NCBI RefSeq assembly: GCF_038397715.1
Contig: NZ_CP151633.1
Location: 3,596,001-3,660,000 of the forward strand
DNA length: 64,000 nucleotides
From: Microbacterium sp. LWO14-1.2
Lineage (GTDB): Bacteria; Actinomycetota; Actinomycetes; Actinomycetales; Microbacteriaceae
Reading direction: 5' to 3'
Part shown: in pieces, positions 29,197 to 40,224 of the stretch
Numbering within the stretch: the stretch's first letter is position 1
How the letters are laid out: each line of letters opens with the position of its first letter
Notes under the pieces: model-generated
Databases searched by the model: none
Seen by the model: only the letters and a program-made list of their open reading frames with translations
What the model was told of the DNA's origin: nothing
Translations under genes and position numbers: made by a program

Positions 29197-31314
29197 GTGA
29201 CCGCCGAGTATTCCGCCCATCATCTCCAGGTGCTCGAAGGCCTCGAGGCCGTCCGCAAGCGCCCTGGCATGTACATCGGGTCGAACGGCTCCCCGGGTCT
29301 CATGCACTGTCTGTGGGAGATCATCGACAACGCCGTCGACGAGGCCGTCGCCGGGAACGGGTCCAAGATCGACCTGATCCTCCATGACGACGGCAGCGTC
29401 GAGGTTCACGACCGGGGCCGCGGCATCCCCGTCGACGTCGAGCCCCGCACCGGACTGACCGGCGTCGAGGTCGTCTACACGAAGCTGCACGCGGGCGGGA
29501 AGTTCGGCGGCGGCTCGTACGCGGCATCCGGCGGTCTGCACGGTGTCGGCGCATCCGTCGTGAACGCGCTCTCGGAGCGTCTCGACGTCGAGGTCGACCG
29601 AGGCGGCAAGACGTATGCGATGTCGTTCCACCGCGGCGAGCCAGGCATCTTCGCCGACAAGGGGGAGAAGCGCCCCGACGCCCCCTTCACCCCGTTCGAG
29701 CAGAAGAGCGAGCTGCGGGTCATCGGGAAGGTCCCGCGCGGCGTCACCGGAACGCGTGTGCGCTACTGGGCCGACCGGCAGATCTTCACGAAGGATGCGG
29801 CGTTCCAGCTGGGCGAGCTCGAGACGCGTGCCCGCCAGACGGCGTTCCTCGTGCCCGGCCTCGAGATCGTCGTGCGCGACGGCCGTGCCGCCGGTACTCC
29901 CGTCGAGGGAGAGAGCGCCCCCGAGGCGACCGTGAACGAGACGTCGTACCTGTACGAGGGAGGCATCTCGGAGTTCGTCGAGTACCTCGCGACCGATGCG
30001 CCGGTCACCGACACCTGGCGCATCCAGGGCGAGGGCACGTTCACCGAGACCGTGCCCGTGCTGCAGGCCGACGGGCACATGGTCGCGACCGAGGTCGAGC
30101 GCGTGTGCGCGGTCGACATCGCGATGCGCTGGGGCACCGGCTATGACACGATCACCCGCTCCTTCGTCAACATCATCTCCACGCCCAAGGGCGGCACGCA
30201 CCAGCAGGGTTTCGAGCAGGAGCTGCTCAAGGCGCTGCGCGCTCAGGTCGAGCAGAACGCGCGTCGGCTCAAGGTGGGCAGCAACGACAAGCTGGAGAAG
30301 GACGACGTGCTCGCCGGACTCACCGCGGTGCTCACCGTGAACGTCCCCGAGCCGCAGTTCGAAGGACAGACCAAAGAGGTGCTCGGCACGCCGGCGGTCC
30401 GTCAGATCGTGGCACAGGTGATCCGCAAGGACCTCGCGGCACGCTTCTCGTCGACCAAGCGCGACGACAAGAGCCAGGCCACGCAGTTGCTCGACAAGAT
30501 CGTCGCGGAGATGAAGGCGCGCGTCTCGGCCCGTGCTCACAAGGAGACGCAGCGACGCAAGAACGCCCTCGAGTCCTCGACCCTGCCGACCAAACTCGTC
30601 GACTGCCGCACGAACGACGTGGAGCGCAGCGAGCTGTTCATCGTCGAAGGCGACTCGGCTCTCGGAACCGCGAAGAACGCGCGGAACAGCGAGTTCCAGG
30701 CGCTGCTGCCGATCCGCGGAAAGATCCTCAACGTGCAGAAGGCATCGGTGGGCGACATGCTGTCGAACACCGAGTGCGCGTCGATCATCCAGGTCATCGG
30801 CGCCGGATCGGGCCGGAGCTTCGACATCGACGCCGCGCGCTACGGCAAGATCATCCTGATGAGCGACGCCGACGTCGACGGCGCGCACATCCGCACCCTG
30901 CTCCTGACGCTGTTCTACCGCTACATGCGACCGCTCATCGAGCACGGCCGCGTCTTCGCGGCGGTGCCGCCGCTGCACCGCGTGATCGTCATCAATCCCG
31001 GCTCGAAGCCGAACGAGACGATCTACACCTACAGCGAGCAGGAGATGCACGCGCTCCTCGCCAAGCTCCGCAAGGCGGGCAAGCGGTGGCACGAACCGAT
31101 CCAGCGCTACAAGGGCCTCGGCGAGATGGATGCCGAGCAGCTGGCGTCGACGACCATGGATCGCGGCGGACGGCTGTTGCGCCGGGTGCGCATGGAGGAT
31201 GCCGAGGCCGCCGGACGCGTGTTCGAGCTGCTAATGGGCAACGAGGTCGCACCACGGCGCGAGTTCATCATCGACTCGTCGGATCGGCTGTCTCGCGAGT
31301 CGATCGACGCCTGA
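29197..31314 (+). CDS. parE: DNA topoisomerase IV subunit B
   Basis: This is the ATPase subunit of a type IIA topoisomerase that decatenates chromosomes. The 705-aa product carries the GHKL ATPase residues (EIIDNAVDEA, DRGRGIPVD, GGLHGVGASVVNALS). A transducer region and the TOPRIM domain follow, with IVEGDSALGTAKNARN and ILMSDADVDGAHIRTL. The C terminus ends soon after the QRYKGLGEMDAEQL motif, as in ParE and GyrB. I call it ParE because parC is encoded at 36603-39044 and the dnaA-gyrB context is absent. GTG 29197 gives the normal N terminus and fits the -10 box. The last 47 bp overlap the convergent glycosyltransferase gene. Confidence 0.93.
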   Translation: MTAEYSAHHLQVLEGLEAVRKRPGMYIGSNGSPGLMHCLWEIIDNAVDEAVAGNGSKIDLILHDDGSVEVHDRGRGIPVDVEPRTGLTGVEVVYTKLHAGGKFGGGSYAASGGLHGVGASVVNALSERLDVEVDRGGKTYAMSFHRGEPGIFADKGEKRPDAPFTPFEQKSELRVIGKVPRGVTGTRVRYWADRQIFTKDAAFQLGELETRARQTAFLVPGLEIVVRDGRAAGTPVEGESAPEATVNETSYLYEGGISEFVEYLATDAPVTDTWRIQGEGTFTETVPVLQADGHMVATEVERVCAVDIAMRWGTGYDTITRSFVNIISTPKGGTHQQGFEQELLKALRAQVEQNARRLKVGSNDKLEKDDVLAGLTAVLTVNVPEPQFEGQTKEVLGTPAVRQIVAQVIRKDLAARFSSTKRDDKSQATQLLDKIVAEMKARVSARAHKETQRRKNALESSTLPTKLVDCRTNDVERSELFIVEGDSALGTAKNARNSEFQALLPIRGKILNVQKASVGDMLSNTECASIIQVIGAGSGRSFDIDAARYGKIILMSDADVDGAHIRTLLLTLFYRYMRPLIEHGRVFAAVPPLHRVIVINPGSKPNETIYTYSEQEMHALLAKLRKAGKRWHEPIQRYKGLGEMDAEQLASTTMDRGGRLLRRVRMEDAEAAGRVFELLMGNEVAPRREFIIDSSDRLSRESIDA

Positions 31315-32515
31315 TCGCGGACCGGTAGACCTCGACCAGCGCGTCGCGGTGCGTGGTCTGCGCCACGCTCTCGCGCTGCGCGACGGCTGCGCGGCTCAGC
31401 GCGGTGATCCGAGTCGGATCGTCGCGAAGCGCCGAGAGCGCGGCGCTCAGTCCCGCGGCATCCGGTGTCTCGGTGACGATTCCCGCGCCCGCCGGAAACG
31501 TCTCGACGAGGTCGGGGTCGGTGACGATGACGGGGAGACCGGATGCGACGGCTTCGAGGATCACCATCGGCTGATTGTCGAAGTCGAGCGAGCTGGAGAC
31601 CAGCACGTGCGCATCGCGCATGGCTTCCAGGACCAGGGACTGGGGCGCGGCGCCGTGAACCGTCAGACGGTCGTCGTCGAGGCGGGCGGCTGAGCGCGCC
31701 ACCGACGCTCGGGCGATTCCGTCGCCGAACATGTGCGCCACGATGCCTGGCGTCGTCCGGACGGCCTCGACGAACACGTCCGGACGCTTCTCCGGCGACA
31801 GACGACCGCACCACATCACCCGCAGAGGCCCGTCGGCAGCGGGCTCGCGGACGGCGGGCGCGCCGACGGCATCCAGAACCGTGTCCTCGAGCCCGTTGGA
31901 GAGTACGGTCAGCGGCGTGCTGACGCCCTGCGCGACGAGCTTCTCGGCGAAGTGCGCGGACGGGACGATGACGTGGTCGGCGTGATTGGCCTGACTCGCC
32001 ATCAGACGCCACATGCGCCTGGCCTGGCGTGTGCGGGCGTACGGTGCTCCCGCATCGATCGCCGCGCGGTCGTGCGGCATCCGGCGGCGATGCAGGGCCG
32101 CGAGCAGCGCGGTCGTGACAGACGGCAGGGGCAGCACGGAGCGCGTGTACACGTCGATGCGACCGTGCATCGTCTGCACGACGGGGACGCCGAGATCCTG
32201 CGCCGCCTCGAACCCCGCCAGCGCGGCGAACATCTCGGTGTGCACGTGGACCACGTCCACGCGGAGGTCGCGCAGAGCGTCGCGCACGGCGGTCGCCGCC
32301 GCGGTGGGCGGCCATGTGAACGGGTATCCGTCCGGTGCGAATCCGCGAGCCGTCGGAAGCCGGATGATCCGGGGGTCCGTGCTCGCGGCCGCCAGGGGCG
32401 CGAGCACGAAGACCTCGTGGCCCGCCTGCTCCAGAGCCTCACGATGGGCCTTGATGACGGTCTGCACGCCGCCGAGTGTCGGCAGGTAGTAGTCGGTCAC
32501 CATGGCGATGCGCAC
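31268..32515 (-). CDS. family 4-type glycosyltransferase
   Basis: This 415-aa GT-B fold glycosyltransferase has the N-terminal acceptor domain RIAMVTDYYLPTLGGVQTV and VDVVHVHTEMFAAL. Its C-terminal nucleotide-sugar domain contains VMWCGRLSPEKRPDVFVEA and the E-x7-E type segment MVILEAVASGLPVIVTDPD. Close relatives include PimB/MgtA-like transferases that glycosylate lipids. It starts with GTG 32515 and a -10 box 6 nt upstream. Only 32 bp separate it from the divergent dehydrogenase gene of the KAS III cassette, so the two transcripts may be co-regulated and the enzyme may glycosylate the cassette's lipid product. Its 3' end overlaps parE by 47 bp. Donor and acceptor are unknown. Confidence 0.88.
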   Translation of the reverse strand: MRIAMVTDYYLPTLGGVQTVIKAHREALEQAGHEVFVLAPLAAASTDPRIIRLPTARGFAPDGYPFTWPPTAAATAVRDALRDLRVDVVHVHTEMFAALAGFEAAQDLGVPVVQTMHGRIDVYTRSVLPLPSVTTALLAALHRRRMPHDRAAIDAGAPYARTRQARRMWRLMASQANHADHVIVPSAHFAEKLVAQGVSTPLTVLSNGLEDTVLDAVGAPAVREPAADGPLRVMWCGRLSPEKRPDVFVEAVRTTPGIVAHMFGDGIARASVARSAARLDDDRLTVHGAAPQSLVLEAMRDAHVLVSSSLDFDNQPMVILEAVASGLPVIVTDPDLVETFPAGAGIVTETPDAAGLSAALSALRDDPTRITALSRAAVAQRESVAQTTHRDALVEVYRSAIRRRSTRETADPTSR

Positions 32516-32547
32516 TCGACCACAATAGGGCCGCTAGGGTGAGGGTC
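32516..32547. promoter_or_regulatory. compact divergent leaderless promoters
   Basis: Within 32 bp, TATTGT on the minus strand (32527-32522) lies 6 nt before the glycosyltransferase GTG. TAGGGT on the plus strand (32535-32540) lies 7 nt before the dehydrogenase ATG. The polymerase footprints must overlap, so the two genes cannot fire simultaneously. Confidence 0.6.
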
Positions 32548-33537
32548 ATGTCCGGAGCCCGTGTGCTGGTGACGGGGGCGACGGGGTTCCTCGGCGGCCA
32601 CGTCGTGCGCGATCTGCAGGATCACGGGTTCGAGGTGTTCGCCGCCGGACGGAACACGGCGCGGCTCGGCGAACTCGTCGATGACCGCCATCGCGTGCCG
32701 GGAGATCTCGCTTCGCTGAGATCGCGGGAACTGCCGGTGGATGCCGTCATCCACTGTGCTGCGCTGTCGACGCCGTGGGGGCGGTGGGCGGACTTCCGCG
32801 AGGCGAACGTCGTCGGCACCGCGCACGTGGCGGATTTCGCCCGGCGCAACGGGGTACGACGGGTCGTTCACGTATCGTCGCCGAGCGTCTACGCCGCCGC
32901 GCGTGACCGGGTGGGCATCGTCGAGGACGACGTCGCCACGGGAAACCGTCTGAACGGCTACATCCGCTCGAAGATCGCCGCCGAGGGACTGCTGCAGGAG
33001 GCGCGGCGTCGTGGCGCGCTGCCCGAGCTCGTGATCGTGCGTCCGCGAGGACTCATCGGCGTCGGCGACCCCAGCCTGGTCCCTCGACTGCTCGACGTGC
33101 ACGCCCGGATCGGGGTGCCGCTCTTCGGCGGAGGAGCGAACCTCATCGACATCACCGCCGTGCAGAACGTCGCGGCGGCGCTTCGGCTGGCCCTGGCCGC
33201 GGGCGATGCGGCCGGAGGCGTCTACAACATCACGAACGGGGAGCCCCGGCCGTTCCGAGATCTCCTCGAACGACTGCTCACGCTCATGGGGGAGCAGCCC
33301 CGGTTCCGCTCCGCGAACCGACGGGTCGCCTGGGCGGCGGCCGCCTCCCTCGAAGCCCTCTGCCGCGCGCTCCCCGGAAGCCCGGAGCCGCCACTGACCC
33401 GGTACACGCTGAGCACGATCGCCTACACGCAGACGCTCGACATCTCCCGTGCCGTGCGGGATCTCGGCTACGCACCGACCGTCACGCTGGACGATGCCCT
33501 CGCGGCGGTCGCCGCCGACCTGCGGGGTCACGGATGA
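32548..33537 (+). CDS. NAD(P)-dependent epimerase/dehydratase-type SDR, OleD-like
   Basis: This 329-aa extended short-chain dehydrogenase has the nucleotide motif VTGATGFLGG (Gly10, Gly13, Gly16), a VIHCAAL strand end, EANVVGT, HVSSPSVY and the catalytic Tyr137-x3-Lys141 in NGYIRSK. The pattern is closest to the 3-beta-HSD/NSDHL-like branch that includes OleD, the 2-alkyl-3-ketoalkanoate reductase of long-chain olefin synthesis. It heads a coupled four-gene operon that ends with a KAS III-like enzyme, so reducing a 3-keto intermediate made by that enzyme is the natural hypothesis. Cofactor preference cannot be read with confidence. The ATGA overlap at 33534 couples it to the next gene. Confidence 0.85.
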   Translation: MSGARVLVTGATGFLGGHVVRDLQDHGFEVFAAGRNTARLGELVDDRHRVPGDLASLRSRELPVDAVIHCAALSTPWGRWADFREANVVGTAHVADFARRNGVRRVVHVSSPSVYAAARDRVGIVEDDVATGNRLNGYIRSKIAAEGLLQEARRRGALPELVIVRPRGLIGVGDPSLVPRLLDVHARIGVPLFGGGANLIDITAVQNVAAALRLALAAGDAAGGVYNITNGEPRPFRDLLERLLTLMGEQPRFRSANRRVAWAAAASLEALCRALPGSPEPPLTRYTLSTIAYTQTLDISRAVRDLGYAPTVTLDDALAAVAADLRGHG

Positions 33538-34331
33538 ACCGCCGTCTGCGGCACTACGCCTGCGGCAGCACGTCGCATGACCTGGCGTCGATGTTCCATG
33601 GCGCACCCCGTGAGCGGCGTCGATTCCCGTCCGGGGTCTTCCTCTACGACGGCGCGGACGGCCGACGCGTCCTGTTCGACACGGGCTACGCCACCGGGGA
33701 ATGGCGGACCGGCTGGCGTGGCGCCGTGTATCGGAGGCTCCTGCCGCCGCACGTCGACGACGAGGACGATGTGGCTTCCCGGTTGCGTCAGGACGGTGTC
33801 GACCCGGCATCGGTGACGCACGTCGTTCTGTCCCATCTGCATCCCGACCACGTGGGCGGCGTCCGCCGATTCCCCGGTGCGACGTTCGTCCTGAGCGAGG
33901 GGCTGCAGCGCACGCTCGCCGCTCCGACACTGCGCAGCGGCATCCTGACCGGTCTGCTGCCCGAGTGGTTCGGCGACACCGCCATGCGTGTTCTCCGCGA
34001 CGAGGAGTTCTCGCTCCGGACCGTCCGCGGTGTCGAGGTCGCAGCGGTCGATCTGTTCGGTGACGGCGGCTATCTCATCGTCGATCTCCCCGGCCACGCC
34101 GACGGGCACCTGGGAGCGCTCGTCGATGACAGGGTGCTGCTCGCGGGGGACGCCGCGTGGGGGAGCGACCTGCTCGAGGAGGTGCAGCGTCTGCGCGCGG
34201 TGCCGCGGGCGGTGCAGTTCGACGCCGACGCGTATCTCCGCACGGCGCACACCGTCTCCCTCCTCGCCGATGCCGGCGTCCGTGTCGTGTGCAGTCATGA
34301 TCCCGTCCGCGAGAGAGACCTGCTGAGCTGA
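33534..34331 (+). CDS. metallo-beta-lactamase-fold hydrolase
   Basis: This 265-aa MBL-fold protein has the dinuclear metal motif SHLHPDHVGG (residues 100-109). Further ligands are probably in DLPGHADGHLGAL and LLAGDAAWG, with a closing CSHDP. It is in the group of stand-alone hydrolases that includes lactonases and thioesterase-like enzymes. The FDTGYATG strand precedes the motif as usual. No signal peptide is seen. In the cassette it stands where Ole clusters carry the alpha/beta hydrolase-fold OleB, so it might open a lactone or release an acyl product. That is inference from position only. It joins the next gene through TGATG. Confidence 0.88.
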   Translation: MNRRLRHYACGSTSHDLASMFHGAPRERRRFPSGVFLYDGADGRRVLFDTGYATGEWRTGWRGAVYRRLLPPHVDDEDDVASRLRQDGVDPASVTHVVLSHLHPDHVGGVRRFPGATFVLSEGLQRTLAAPTLRSGILTGLLPEWFGDTAMRVLRDEEFSLRTVRGVEVAAVDLFGDGGYLIVDLPGHADGHLGALVDDRVLLAGDAAWGSDLLEEVQRLRAVPRAVQFDADAYLRTAHTVSLLADAGVRVVCSHDPVRERDLLS

Positions 34332-35623
34332 TGTCGACCCTCCGCATCCTGAGAGAGTTCGCTGCCGTGCGCTGGTTCAGACCGCTGCGCTCGCGTCGGG
34401 CGGTCGCGCGCCGTCAGCGTCGTCTGCTGCGGCGACACGTCCGGTTCCTCCGACGGCGGTCGCCGTACTTCCGAGAACTGCTCGCCGACGCCGAGTTCGA
34501 CCGGCTCCCGCTGATGGACAAGCGCATCATGATGGCGCAGTTCGATCGCATGAACACCGTCGGAGCGAACAAGGAGCAGGCGCTGGAGCTCGCGATCGCG
34601 AACGAGCGCTCGCGAGACTTCGACGCCGATCTGGGGGCCAACTCGGTCGGACTCTCCAGCGGCACGAGCGGTCATCGCGGACTCTTCGTGGTGAGCCCCG
34701 CAGAACGTGACGCCTGGGTGGGCACCGTGCTCGCTCGCACGCTGCCCCGGGGCGACCTGCTCGGGCATCGCATCGCGCTCTTCCTCCGCGCGGACAACTC
34801 CCTGTACGAATCCGTGGGATCGCGCGCTGTCTCCTTCCGCTACTTCGACGTCTACGCGGACATGTCCGAGAACGTCGCGCGGCTGCAGGAGTACCGACCG
34901 ACCATCCTCGTCGCGCCGCCCTCCGTGCTGCGCGTGATCGCGAAGGCAGCGGAAACAGGGGACTTCGACGTCGTACCGAAGAAGGTCTACGCGGTCGCGG
35001 AGGTGCTCGAGCTCGCCGACGCCGACCGGATCCGTGCGGCTCTCGGGCAGCCGCTCCTGCATCAGCTCTATCAGTGCACCGAGGGGTTCCTCGCCCACAC
35101 CTGCGAACGCGGTGTCATCCATCTGAACGAGGACTCGGTGCTGTTCGAGCGGGAGGCACTGGATGCGGAGCGCTTCGTCCCGATCGTGACCGATCTGCGT
35201 CGTCGCGCGCAGCCGATCGTGCGCTACCGCCTCGGCGATGTGCTGCGAGCGAAGAGCGAACCGTGCGCGTGCGGCAGCGCCCTCGCGGCCATCGACCGCA
35301 TCGAGGGTCGCGAGGGCGACACCCTTCTCTTCCGAGGCTCGGACGGACGCCCGGTGCCCGTGTTCGCCGACGTCGTGGCCAGGGCGCTGCTCTTCGCGGA
35401 CGGATTCGACGAGTACCGGGTCGTGCAGACCGCCGCTTCGCGCCTCGAGATCGCGCTCGACGTGGTGGATGATCGATCGCGCCGCAGCGTCGGCGCGGAG
35501 GTCGCCGGACTGGCGGACCGGCTGGGCTGTGAACGACCGGAAGTCGTGTTCGTACCGTATACGCACGACGCGTCGGTGAAGCTGCGCCGAGTGGTGCGCG
35601 ACTGGGGGGAAGGAAGACCATGA
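34331..35623 (+). CDS. F390 synthetase-related adenylate-forming enzyme
   Basis: This 430-aa protein belongs to the phenylacetate-CoA ligase/F390-synthetase-like branch of the AMP-forming superfamily. The phosphate loop is SSGTSGHRG (residues 109-117). LYQCTEGFLAHTC supplies the aromatic-Thr-Glu motif and VRYRLGDVLR the ribose-binding Asp. A four-Cys-poor segment CACGS sits where relatives have a zinc knuckle. The start is unusually rich in Arg and may bind a membrane or partner. A family of this type is known in databases as an 'F390 synthetase-related hypothetical' and has no assigned substrate that I know. Here it may activate a fatty or 3-hydroxy acid, in the position of OleC. Overlaps at both ends couple it to its neighbours. 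Confidence 0.85.
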   Translation: MSTLRILREFAAVRWFRPLRSRRAVARRQRRLLRRHVRFLRRRSPYFRELLADAEFDRLPLMDKRIMMAQFDRMNTVGANKEQALELAIANERSRDFDADLGANSVGLSSGTSGHRGLFVVSPAERDAWVGTVLARTLPRGDLLGHRIALFLRADNSLYESVGSRAVSFRYFDVYADMSENVARLQEYRPTILVAPPSVLRVIAKAAETGDFDVVPKKVYAVAEVLELADADRIRAALGQPLLHQLYQCTEGFLAHTCERGVIHLNEDSVLFEREALDAERFVPIVTDLRRRAQPIVRYRLGDVLRAKSEPCACGSALAAIDRIEGREGDTLLFRGSDGRPVPVFADVVARALLFADGFDEYRVVQTAASRLEIALDVVDDRSRRSVGAEVAGLADRLGCERPEVVFVPYTHDASVKLRRVVRDWGEGRP

Positions 35624-36552
35624 GGAGCTGCGAGATCGTCGGCTGGGGCACGTCGCTGCCCGACCGGATCGTGCGATTCGGAGACGAGGTGCGATATCGC
35701 ATCGTCGACGACCTGTCGCACCTCGACATGCTCGTCGACGCCGCCGAGCGCGCACTGGCGAGGGCGTCCGTCGCCCCGGACGAGATCGACCTGGTTCTCG
35801 GGGCGTCCGCTGCCGGGGTCCAGCCCATTCCCTGTACGGCCGCACTCGTGCTGGAACGCCTCACCCTCACCGGCCATGCTGCCGCGTTCGACGTGAACTC
35901 GACCTGCACCAGTTTCATCACGGCGCTCGACGTCGCCTCGCGATACCTCGAGGCGGGGGATGCGGAGACCATCCTCATCGTCTCGGGCGATGTCGGGTCC
36001 CGGTTTCTCAACCCCGACCAGCGCGAGAGCTACGAGCTCTTCAGCGACGCCGGCGCCGCCGTCGTGCTGAAGCGCTCATCTGATCCTCAGCGAGGCGTGA
36101 TCGCGAGCGCCCAGCGCACCTGGCCGGCCTCTGCGCACGACACCGAGATCCGCGGTGGCCTGTCGCGTTCCCCGGCGCAGGTCTATGCGGACGCCGACCC
36201 CGCGGACTACCTCTTCGACATGGACGGCAGGCGTGCGCTGCTCGCGATGATGCGCGTGCTGCCCGAGTTCTTCGCGGCGTTCCACGAGCGATCGGGCGTC
36301 GCGCATGACGACGTCGCTCTGTGGGTGCCGCATCAGGCCTCCGCGGCCCTCGGACCGATGCTCGACAGACTCGGCATCCCCGCCGACCGTCGAGTCGACG
36401 AGGTCGCGGATTTCGGGAACATGGTCTCGGCCTCCGTCCCTTTCATGCTCGCGCGGGCGCTCGATGCGGGGCGCGTCGGCCGCGGCGACACCGTGATCCT
36501 CTGCGGTACCGCCGCGGGTCTCACTGCGAACGTCCTCGCCCTTCGTCTCTGA
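35620..36552 (+). CDS. 3-oxoacyl-ACP synthase III-like condensing enzyme (KAS III/OleA-like)
   Basis: This 310-aa thiolase-fold enzyme retains the full Cys-His-Asn catalytic triad: Cys96 in DVNSTCTSFITAL, His238 in WVPHQAS and Asn267 in ADFGNMVSASVP. The C-terminal GDTVILCGTAAGLT loop closes the site. KAS III enzymes join an acyl-CoA and malonyl-ACP; OleA joins two acyl chains. It is shorter than OleA (about 340 aa) and than ordinary FabH, and lies far from any fab gene or acyl carrier protein. A dedicated role in the four-gene cassette is therefore more likely than housekeeping fatty acid synthesis. It is last in the operon and converges on parC. Confidence 0.87.
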   Translation: MRSCEIVGWGTSLPDRIVRFGDEVRYRIVDDLSHLDMLVDAAERALARASVAPDEIDLVLGASAAGVQPIPCTAALVLERLTLTGHAAAFDVNSTCTSFITALDVASRYLEAGDAETILIVSGDVGSRFLNPDQRESYELFSDAGAAVVLKRSSDPQRGVIASAQRTWPASAHDTEIRGGLSRSPAQVYADADPADYLFDMDGRRALLAMMRVLPEFFAAFHERSGVAHDDVALWVPHQASAALGPMLDRLGIPADRRVDEVADFGNMVSASVPFMLARALDAGRVGRGDTVILCGTAAGLTANVLALRL

Positions 36553-39102: not shown

Positions 39103-40224
39103 ATGTCCCTCATGCTACCGCCCGAGTCGCTCGCAGCCCGGAGCGTCGTCGGGGTGGCGGACGACCTGTTCGCCGCTCTCCGCGGCGGGTCCGAGGCTCT
39201 GCCGCGGGCCGAATCGGTCGTGCTCGTGCTCATCGACGGTCTGGGCGCCATCACCCTTCGTGCCCACGCCGGCCACGCCAGATCGCTCACGGCGGGCATG
39301 GCCAGGAAGGACGTCGCGCACACCGTCTTCCCGTCGACCACCGCTGCAGCGCTGACGAGCCTGCTCACGGGAGTCTGGCCGGGGGAGCACGGCCTCGTCG
39401 GATACCGGGTGCTGGATCGCGAGCGCGACCTTCTCGTGAATCAGCTCTCCGGCTGGGAGAGCGAGGGGGTCGATCCGCTCGCATGGCAGACGTCTCCGAC
39501 GGTGTTCGAGCGCGCATCGGCAGAAGGACGCCCCGCGTTCGCGGTCGGTGTCGCCGCGTACGCCCGCAGCGGTTTCACCCGCGCCACCCTGCGCGGCGCG
39601 GAGTTCGTCTCGGCCGAGGCGCCGGCGGATCGCGTGCGTGTCGCGTACGACCTCGCCGAACGCCATCCGGGCGCCCTCGTCTACTGCTACCTGCCGGAGG
39701 TCGATAAAGCCGGCCATCGGCACGGCGTCGACTCGCCGCACTGGATCGCTGCGCTGGAGGAGCTCGATGCCGCCCTTTCCGTGCGGGTGCCGCCGGGCGT
39801 CGGCGTGCTCGTGACCGCGGATCACGGCATGGTCGACGTGCCGGCCCACCGGCAGGTCGTGCTCGAGGCCGAGCACCTTTCCGGAGTGCGGCACCTCGGC
39901 GGAGAGCCGCGGATGCTGCACGCCTACCTCGATCCGGACGCCGACGCCGCCGAGGTCGCCGCACGCTGGCGCCGCGACCTCGCCGGGTACGCGGACGTGG
40001 GGACGCGGGAGGATGCCGTCGCGGCCGGTCTGTTCGGCCCGGTGGTGACGGATGCCGCGGCATCGCGTATCGGCGATGTGCTCATCGTCTCCCGGGGCAA
40101 CGTCGCGGTGTACGACGGCACCGCCGCCGATCAGCGCAACCGCGGCATGGTCGGCCAGCACGGCGGTCTGACCCCGGAGGAGCGTCAGGTTCCGCTCATC
40201 CGACTCGGCGCTTTCGCGCGCTGA
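39103..40224 (+). CDS. alkaline phosphatase superfamily phosphodiesterase/nucleotide pyrophosphatase
   Basis: This 373-aa enzyme belongs to the type I phosphodiesterase/nucleotide pyrophosphatase group (PF01663). [14 protein letters not shown] has the first metal Asp, and [16 protein letters not shown] carries the Thr nucleophile. [13 protein letters not shown] and [10 protein letters not shown] provide the remaining metal ligands. No signal peptide or membrane anchor is visible, so it should be cytoplasmic, unlike many family members. Substrate is unknown. Relatives lie next to parC and sepH in other Microbacteriaceae. ATG 39103 is followed by a second in-frame ATG three codons later, either of which could start it. 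Confidence 0.88.

Follow-up and report, generated by a model that had tools for sequence, protein, structure and literature searches.

Among described systems, the Ole pathway (PMC7064751, PMC7158056) comes nearest in its logic to a cassette of four genes in a 64,000-nucleotide (nt) stretch of DNA from Microbacterium sp. LWO14-1.2 (NZ_CP151633.1, positions 3,596,001-3,660,000; "the window" below is the whole of this stretch). In both cases a ketosynthase III (KAS III)-fold Claisen enzyme, an OleD-like short-chain dehydrogenase/reductase (SDR), an ATP-using ligase and a hydrolase are clustered. The cassette differs from the Ole system in that its KAS III belongs to another clade and lacks the catalytic Glu, in that it has a glycosyltransferase (GT) partner, and, for the four cassette proteins examined, in that its ligase is TIGR02304 and not OleC and its hydrolase has the metallo-beta-lactamase (MBL) fold and not the alpha/beta fold of OleB; the initial annotation of this DNA, made from the sequence alone, had OleB and OleC replaced by other families, and on this point it was right. 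The hydrolase shares its fold and metal ligands with the N-acyl-homoserine lactone (AHL) lactonases (AhlX, GcL, AiiA type) and differs from them in scoring below all NCBIfam lactonase cut-offs and in having a fixed place in a lipid-type cassette. The present analysis links TIGR02304, a family whose name states no function, to three fixed partners. In rhamnolipid-type synthesis a beta-hydroxy lipid is glycosylated on its hydroxyl; the cassette is like this in the hydroxyl glycosylation that we propose and in the GT1-type enzymes of some of its relatives, and unlike it in that a KAS III and SDR pair would make its hydroxy lipid.

Across many phyla the four enzymes occur as one conserved unit, a GT4-family glycosyltransferase goes with that unit in Microbacterium, and other lineages pair the same core with other GT families or with other lipid-modifying enzymes. 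That the cassette serves a lipid pathway is well supported, and it probably directs the synthesis of a lipid, here a glycolipid, with a glycosylated beta-hydroxy compound as its product; what the data fix are the linkage and the family placements, from which we infer the structure of the product and the order of the steps.

The core genes, their linkage and their distribution

The core open reading frames (ORFs) all lie on the + strand, between positions 32548 and 36552, and overlap successively by 4, 1 and 4 bases (Table 1). Conservation was counted over 33 rows of relatives, about one per genus (32 rows for KAS III). The SDR residues S110, Y138 and K142 are invariant, as are H101, H103, D105, H106 and H188 of the MBL enzyme, whose D206 and H255 are nearly so; the ligase keeps S109, G111-T112-S113-G114, T250-E251, D303 and the C-terminal lysine K417 in every row, and the KAS III has C96 in 32 of 32 rows and H238 and N267 in 31 (the remaining row has a gap). 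The initial annotation's description of four fused genes with intact catalytic motifs is thus borne out by the overlaps and by the relatives. The longest SDR ORF begins with a GTG at 32476, and the ATG at 32548, which sits behind a -10 motif kept in relatives, is most likely the start.

The ligase exceeds the curated cut-off of TIGR02304 (251.9 bits) and is a full member; its closest solved relatives are PaaK-like ligases, its weaker NCBIfam matches include BagE/FevW and FlxY, and among 120 listed relatives those with organism names are, with one exception, from Microbacterium. For the MBL enzyme the closest NCBIfam model is the AttM lactonase (75 bits, cut-off 390), other lactonase models scoring lower. 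It carries the dinuclear metal-ligand set HxHxDH, His, Asp, His of the AHL lactonases, and its predicted structure (predicted local distance difference test score, pLDDT, 94.7) is closest to AhlX, GcL, 4-pyridoxolactonase and other lactonases, which makes a lactone or a thioester a plausible substrate; we propose that it may act as a thioesterase or lactonase.

A scan of named genomes gave at least 590 confirmed stretches, of which we took the best 80, those closest to the window's ligase, a sample containing many Streptococcus and Paenibacillus near copies. The full set of four genes stands on one strand in 78 of these 80, in the order SDR-MBL-ligase-KAS in 61 and KAS-SDR-MBL-ligase in 17; for the other two, from Calothrix, the KAS gene was not seen nearby. 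Because these 80 are the best-scoring loci, unselected family matches were sampled as well, from the phyla of Enterococcus (6 of 299 genomes), Fusobacterium (14 of 98) and Calothrix (8 of 194); four of these 28 genomes were already represented among the loci, and among the 24 counted all four genes lie near each other in 17 (3 of 5, 12 of 12 and 2 of 7 by phylum, in the same sequence). Three loci (L217-L219) have a rearranged gene order and retain the set, and L220 has additional genes interposed between the core genes. A tblastn search with the ligase matches 80 plasmid records, and in 27 the match spans 80% or more of the query. Ten of these regions were inspected, and KAS III, SDR, MBL and ligase genes stand together in seven of the eight that are annotated, the eighth, from Pseudomonas amygdali, having the ligase alone; a profile search found all four genes in the two unannotated ones (Burkholderia and Fusobacterium). 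An ATP-grasp gene follows the KAS gene in the Paenibacillus and Pontibacillus plasmid loci. Two "plasmid" records, NZ_CP141085.1 (E. coli; narGHJI, purU, galU) and NZ_CP084075.1 (Fusobacterium; 2.1 Mb), look chromosomal. The short flanks of 11 ligase homologues under the cut-off hold none of the other three genes.

Complete sets occur in at least eight phyla (Actinomycetota, Bacillota, Fusobacteriota, Pseudomonadota, Campylobacterota, Mycoplasmatota, Saccharimonadota and the phylum of Calothrix), the Campylobacterota and Saccharimonadota cases being metagenome bins. Restriction of the cassette to Microbacterium is therefore rejected; the initial annotation had made co-occurrence outside close relatives a test of its own proposal, and complete sets lie far outside the genus. 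Its view of a conserved lipid-type cassette with an OleD-like SDR also agrees with this linkage and with the best NCBIfam match of the SDR. Within the window's phylum a ligase above the cut-off was found in one of 396 sampled genomes, the window's own, and 16 of 149 Microbacterium genomes have the cassette; such a patchy distribution suggests horizontal spread. Carriage by viruses was considered and rejected, none of the 25 viral-contig stretches that matched the patterns being confirmed.

A seven-gene version, in which the core is joined by PAP2, FA_hydroxylase and FA_desaturase genes (Table 1), is matched in 672 of 5426 complete E. coli genomes; for 671 the match covers 80% or more of the query. 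In the one genome inspected this island lies between narI and tRNA-Tyr genes, and the narI-tyrV interval of K-12 MG1655 is without the cassette genes. The three added genes are of lipid type and so support a lipid pathway.

Glycosyltransferases and other exchangeable partners

The GT4 gene faces the SDR gene across 32 bases. Its nearest NCBIfam models are glucosyl-diacylglycerol and glucosamine-phosphatidylglycerol (GlcN-PG) synthases, which are lipid glycosyltransferases (76 bits, under their cut-offs), and we propose that it may glycosylate the cassette lipid. It is present in 20 of the 149 Microbacterium genomes, that is, in 16 of 16 that bear the cassette and in 4 of 133 that do not (Fisher p 4e-18, uncorrected for relatedness); the copies in the four cassette-free genomes show 56-58% identity. 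In all 16 cassette genomes it lies at most 2 kb from the ligase gene, one gene copy being split by a contig end. The placement of the unit between parE and parC agrees with a reading of the flanking translations and needs one amendment, as parE and the SDR gene are separated by the GT4 gene. Between the two divergent starts are two TANNNT motifs (Table 1). In a comparison of 26 loci, both starts could be located in 19 (L059 and L060 are near copies), and both motifs are kept in all 19, with a spacing of 6-7 nt on the SDR side and a gap of varying length. Two divergent leaderless promoters would give such a pattern, and the paired motifs may be promoters of this kind.

Table 1. Positions of the cassette genes and of associated features (plain numbers, window; L numbers, other loci).
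Feature	Position	Strand	Evidence, source or remark
GT4-family glycosyltransferase	31268-32515	-	PF13439 94.7 bits; PF00534 above cut-off
-10-like TANNNT (TATTGT)	32522-32527	-	6 nt ahead of GT GTG start
-10-like TANNNT (TAGGGT)	32535-32540	+	7 nt ahead of SDR ATG
Extended SDR, OleD-like	32548-33537	+	PF01370 108 bits; best NCBIfam model OleD
MBL-fold metallohydrolase, lactonase type	33534-34331	+	PF00753 60 bits; metal ligands kept
Adenylate-forming ligase TIGR02304 (F390 synthetase-related, PaaK-like)	34331-35623	+	463.1 bits
KAS III	35620-36552	+	PF08545 and PF08541; C96/H238/N267
Type I phosphodiesterase family	39103-40224	+	PF01663
Acyl carrier protein (ACP) gene, then FabD- and FabF-type genes, after KAS	L061:10287-13640		Unplaced small genome
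ACP gene, then FabF-type gene, after KAS; further on acyl-ACP thioesterase	L065:5958-8421		Lachnospiraceae bin
ACP gene, then biotin carrier (AccB) and biotin carboxylase (AccC) genes, after KAS	L068:10275-12759		Saccharibacteria bin
Seven-gene island	L174:5001-11882		E. coli NRG 857C
Family c19	L067:5341-5988		Fusobacterium
Family c19	L021:5040-5684		Enterococcus
Family c19	L071:324-971		Eubacteriales bin

The joined core proteins were put into a quick tree (no bootstrap), in which the loci of the window's type form a clade of 29 rows with a Shimodaira-Hasegawa-like approximate likelihood ratio test (SH-aLRT) support of 100. Neighbour clusters and head-group labels had been set by hand before this tree was made, and cluster representatives were checked against Pfam. 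A GT gene stands beside the core in 27 of the 29 rows, drawn from several unrelated families (GT4 9, GT1-like 11 in two groups, GT21 4, GT1 plus GT21 2, GT2 1). The second layout has other partners: ATP-grasp (PRK06849-like) and GNAT genes in Bacillota, Paraburkholderia and two cyanobacterial loci, a PF13469 sulfotransferase in Ketogulonicigenium and Paracoccus, a DUF3419 protein in Rhizobium (which we take to be BtaA-like), and in E. coli the three lipid-type genes named above. The ten head-group labels need 15 changes on the core tree, where the minimum possible is 9, so partners have been exchanged. With partners as varied as these, the common core would seem to make a lipid scaffold with a hydroxyl or carboxyl handle.

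Five of 12 Fusobacteriota loci have an eight-gene run of SDR, GT21, c19 and GT1 followed by the four core genes. Family c19 (about 216 aa) also stands beside the cassette elsewhere (Table 1); its representative has no Pfam or NCBIfam match, the only PDB chains that the c19 profile matches are designed or unrelated ones, and an SxSxG, Asp, His pattern suggests an alpha/beta hydrolase. The PF01663 gene of the window lies past the parC-like gene, and other actinobacteria have genes of the same cluster near the cassette.

Placement of the ketosynthase

A matched-domain length filter kept 59 of 92 candidate rows for the KAS tree (32 cassette, 22 FabH-like and 5 OleA, two of seven OleA rows having been removed), and the tree has a cassette clade (98/95), a FabH-like clade (99/93) and an OleA clade (100/100). 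When MxnB and CorB, of the myxopyronin and corallopyronin systems, were added, these two reference sequences joined the cassette rows at 97/95, and the FabH-like clade stayed separate (99/94). The cassette enzymes have Gln68 in 32 of 32 rows, Asn93 in 30 and Ser98 in 31, all common to MxnB and CorB; position 98 is Gly in 22 of 22 FabH-like and 5 of 5 OleA rows. At the position of the OleA catalytic Glu (117), which is Glu in all five OleA rows, the cassette rows have Ile (26) or Leu (6) and MxnB has Val. The family profile ranks MxnB (236 bits) and CorB (224 bits) ahead of the FabH entries (at most 216 bits), and no OleA-named entry falls within 1e-30. For the predicted structure (pLDDT 93.9) the closest Foldseek matches are MxnB, S. 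aureus FabH and CorB, the first OleA appearing at rank 42. In PMC4578411, MxnB and CorB are likewise given Val where OleA has Glu, and are placed in the FabH clade; PMC5724707 and PMC12304814 describe, respectively, the joining of two carrier-bound beta-keto chains by MxnB, and CorB and MxnB as chain-fusing enzymes. The resemblance has its bounds: identity to these enzymes is about 29% in the structure alignment, the cassette loci listed contain no polyketide synthase assembly line, and the window's KAS clade lacks a loop of 17-18 residues. From this placement we propose that the cassette KAS III may join acyl units in an MxnB-like way.

Two other identities were rejected. An ordinary FabH paralogue, which the initial annotation had itself named as a finding that would overturn its proposal, does not fit a KAS that lies outside a separate FabH-like clade of 22 rows in both trees. 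The same annotation's pairing of the KAS III with OleA is not supported, given the separate OleA clade, the lack of the catalytic Glu in 32 of 32 rows and the profile result above.

The loop difference lies in the P14-A45 stretch, which is 31-33 residues long in 23 of 23 window-type rows and 49-57 residues long in the 9 other cassette rows, the 22 FabH-like rows, the 5 OleA rows and MxnB. The corresponding region of FabH contributes to coenzyme A (CoA) binding, and window-type KAS enzymes may therefore not use CoA thioesters. In agreement with this possibility, a PF00550 ACP gene lies directly 3' of the KAS gene in three loci (Table 1). A search of 28 genomes found no PF08541 protein besides the cassette KAS in four, which include the genomes of the three ACP loci (some are bins and possibly incomplete); the window genome (3.78 Mb, a single contig) has four PF08541 places, the cassette KAS among them.

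Proposed pathway and its alternatives

In the pathway that we favour, the KAS III would join two ACP-carried acyl units, with a malonyl or beta-ketoacyl thioester as the nucleophile because the Glu base of OleA is absent. The SDR, for which we propose the role of beta-keto reductase, would turn the beta-keto function into a hydroxyl, the MBL enzyme would cleave a thioester or lactone and so release the chain, the ligase would re-activate the carboxylate to give an ester, lactone or thioester, and the GT would add a sugar to the hydroxyl. We would expect the product to be a beta-hydroxy lipid that bears a sugar and perhaps has two chains.

Several observations weigh against this reading. Seven of the 24 unselected loci are incomplete (ligase alone in three, MBL and ligase in two, no MBL in one, a contig end in one), and Pseudomonas amygdali pMPPla107 (L023:7803-11391) has a TIGR02304 ligase without SDR, MBL or KAS. 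A GT was not in view in 2 of the 29 rows of the window's clade, and the second layout is mostly without one, which limits the word "glycolipid" to that clade. In the SDR tree the cassette SDRs are not resolved as a single clade, support for a cassette-only KAS clade drops to 93/79 with MxnB and CorB in the tree, and the single window KAS sequence, searched against solved structures, scores 122 bits with FabH entries and 121 with MxnB. Finally, among the papers listed by searches of the open-access literature there was none on the cassette and no described product for it (subscription journals lay mostly outside the coverage), and the passages of PMC11491465 and PMC11052126 consulted contain nothing tied to it. 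As a separate observation, the pMPPla107 ligase lies near an ATP-grasp gene from the cluster that accompanies the second layout.

A true Ole-type route, with OleA-like head-to-head condensation, OleD-like reduction and beta-lactone closure by the ligase, the MBL enzyme either replacing OleB or opening the lactone, would lead to an olefin or a (possibly glycosylated) beta-lactone; we think it unlikely. The SDR does point that way, since its nearest NCBIfam model is OleD and the cassette SDR profile scores 192-245 bits with actinobacterial OleD. Its 197 bits with the NCBIfam model lie under the equivalog cut-off of 580, a cut-off that is not diagnostic because it is passed by none of 149 actinobacterial genomes and true ole loci among them reach at most 422 bits; the OleD family was matched nowhere in the window genome at 1e-60. 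The MBL enzyme is lactonase-like, olefins are reported from Microbacterium in PMC7158056, and a GT partner is compatible with a beta-lactone, a glycosylated one being predicted in PMC7064751 for an oleACD cluster that has a glycosyltransferase. An olefin would offer the GT no hydroxyl, and this partner, which the initial annotation had not noticed, makes an olefin less likely as the final product. The ligase is TIGR02304, and the cassette is not filed here as Ole because the OleA features tested are not found in its KAS.

Improbable, too, is a logic like that of the Pseudomonas quinolone signal (PQS), patterned on the roles of PqsA, PqsD and PqsE, in which the ligase would activate an aromatic or fatty acid, the KAS III would condense it with a malonyl thioester, the MBL enzyme would cleave, the SDR would reduce, and a small signal would be stored as a glycoside. 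The enzyme types are the same, with a PaaK-like ligase and an MBL hydrolase, and PqsD is among the KAS profile matches (130 bits), far below MxnB and FabH. In the loci listed, the core has no recognised neighbour for an aromatic precursor, and the fatty-chain enzymes of E. coli and the fatty acid synthesis genes of the three ACP loci indicate long chains. We are equally doubtful of a ketone route, in which the ligase would provide an activated fatty acid, the MBL enzyme would free the beta-keto acid made by the KAS III, this acid would lose CO2, and the SDR and GT would give a secondary alcohol and then an alkyl glycoside. It asks for no new chemistry, uses all five genes and suits an OleD-family SDR and a hydroxyl-acting GT; on the present evidence it is indistinguishable from the best explanation, and the sulfotransferase, ATP-grasp and GNAT partners elsewhere suit a carboxylate or a hydroxyl alike. 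It is very improbable that chance alone placed an additional FabH paralogue and a quorum-quenching lactonase of unrelated function next to a ligase: the KAS III fold and triad and the nearness of the MBL enzyme to AHL lactonases would fit, but the linkage recurs across phyla, FabH-like rows form their own clade, and the window genome has a separate FabH-like gene elsewhere.

Beyond the probable glycosylated beta-hydroxy lipid of the window, a broader and more tentative possibility is that the cassette makes an undescribed bacterial lipid class, in which two acyl chains would be joined carbon to carbon on a carrier protein in the manner of MxnB, carry a beta-hydroxy group and receive interchangeable head groups (sugars from several GT families, sulfate, betaine-type or amino acid groups). 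If so, a ceramide- or mycolate-like scaffold would be common to actinobacteria, oral streptococci, fusobacteria, a Saccharibacteria bin and about one-eighth of complete E. coli genomes; since the cassette is found in oral and gut bacteria, E. coli included, much-studied organisms may hold such a lipid. A pathway could then be assigned to TIGR02304, a curated family whose name says no more than "F390 synthetase-related", and the KAS clade would carry chain-joining ketosynthases beyond rare myxobacterial antibiotics into a lipid pathway that is common. The island-free K-12 MG1655 is a ready null, and the swapping of head groups would give a natural series for identifying the shared aglycone.

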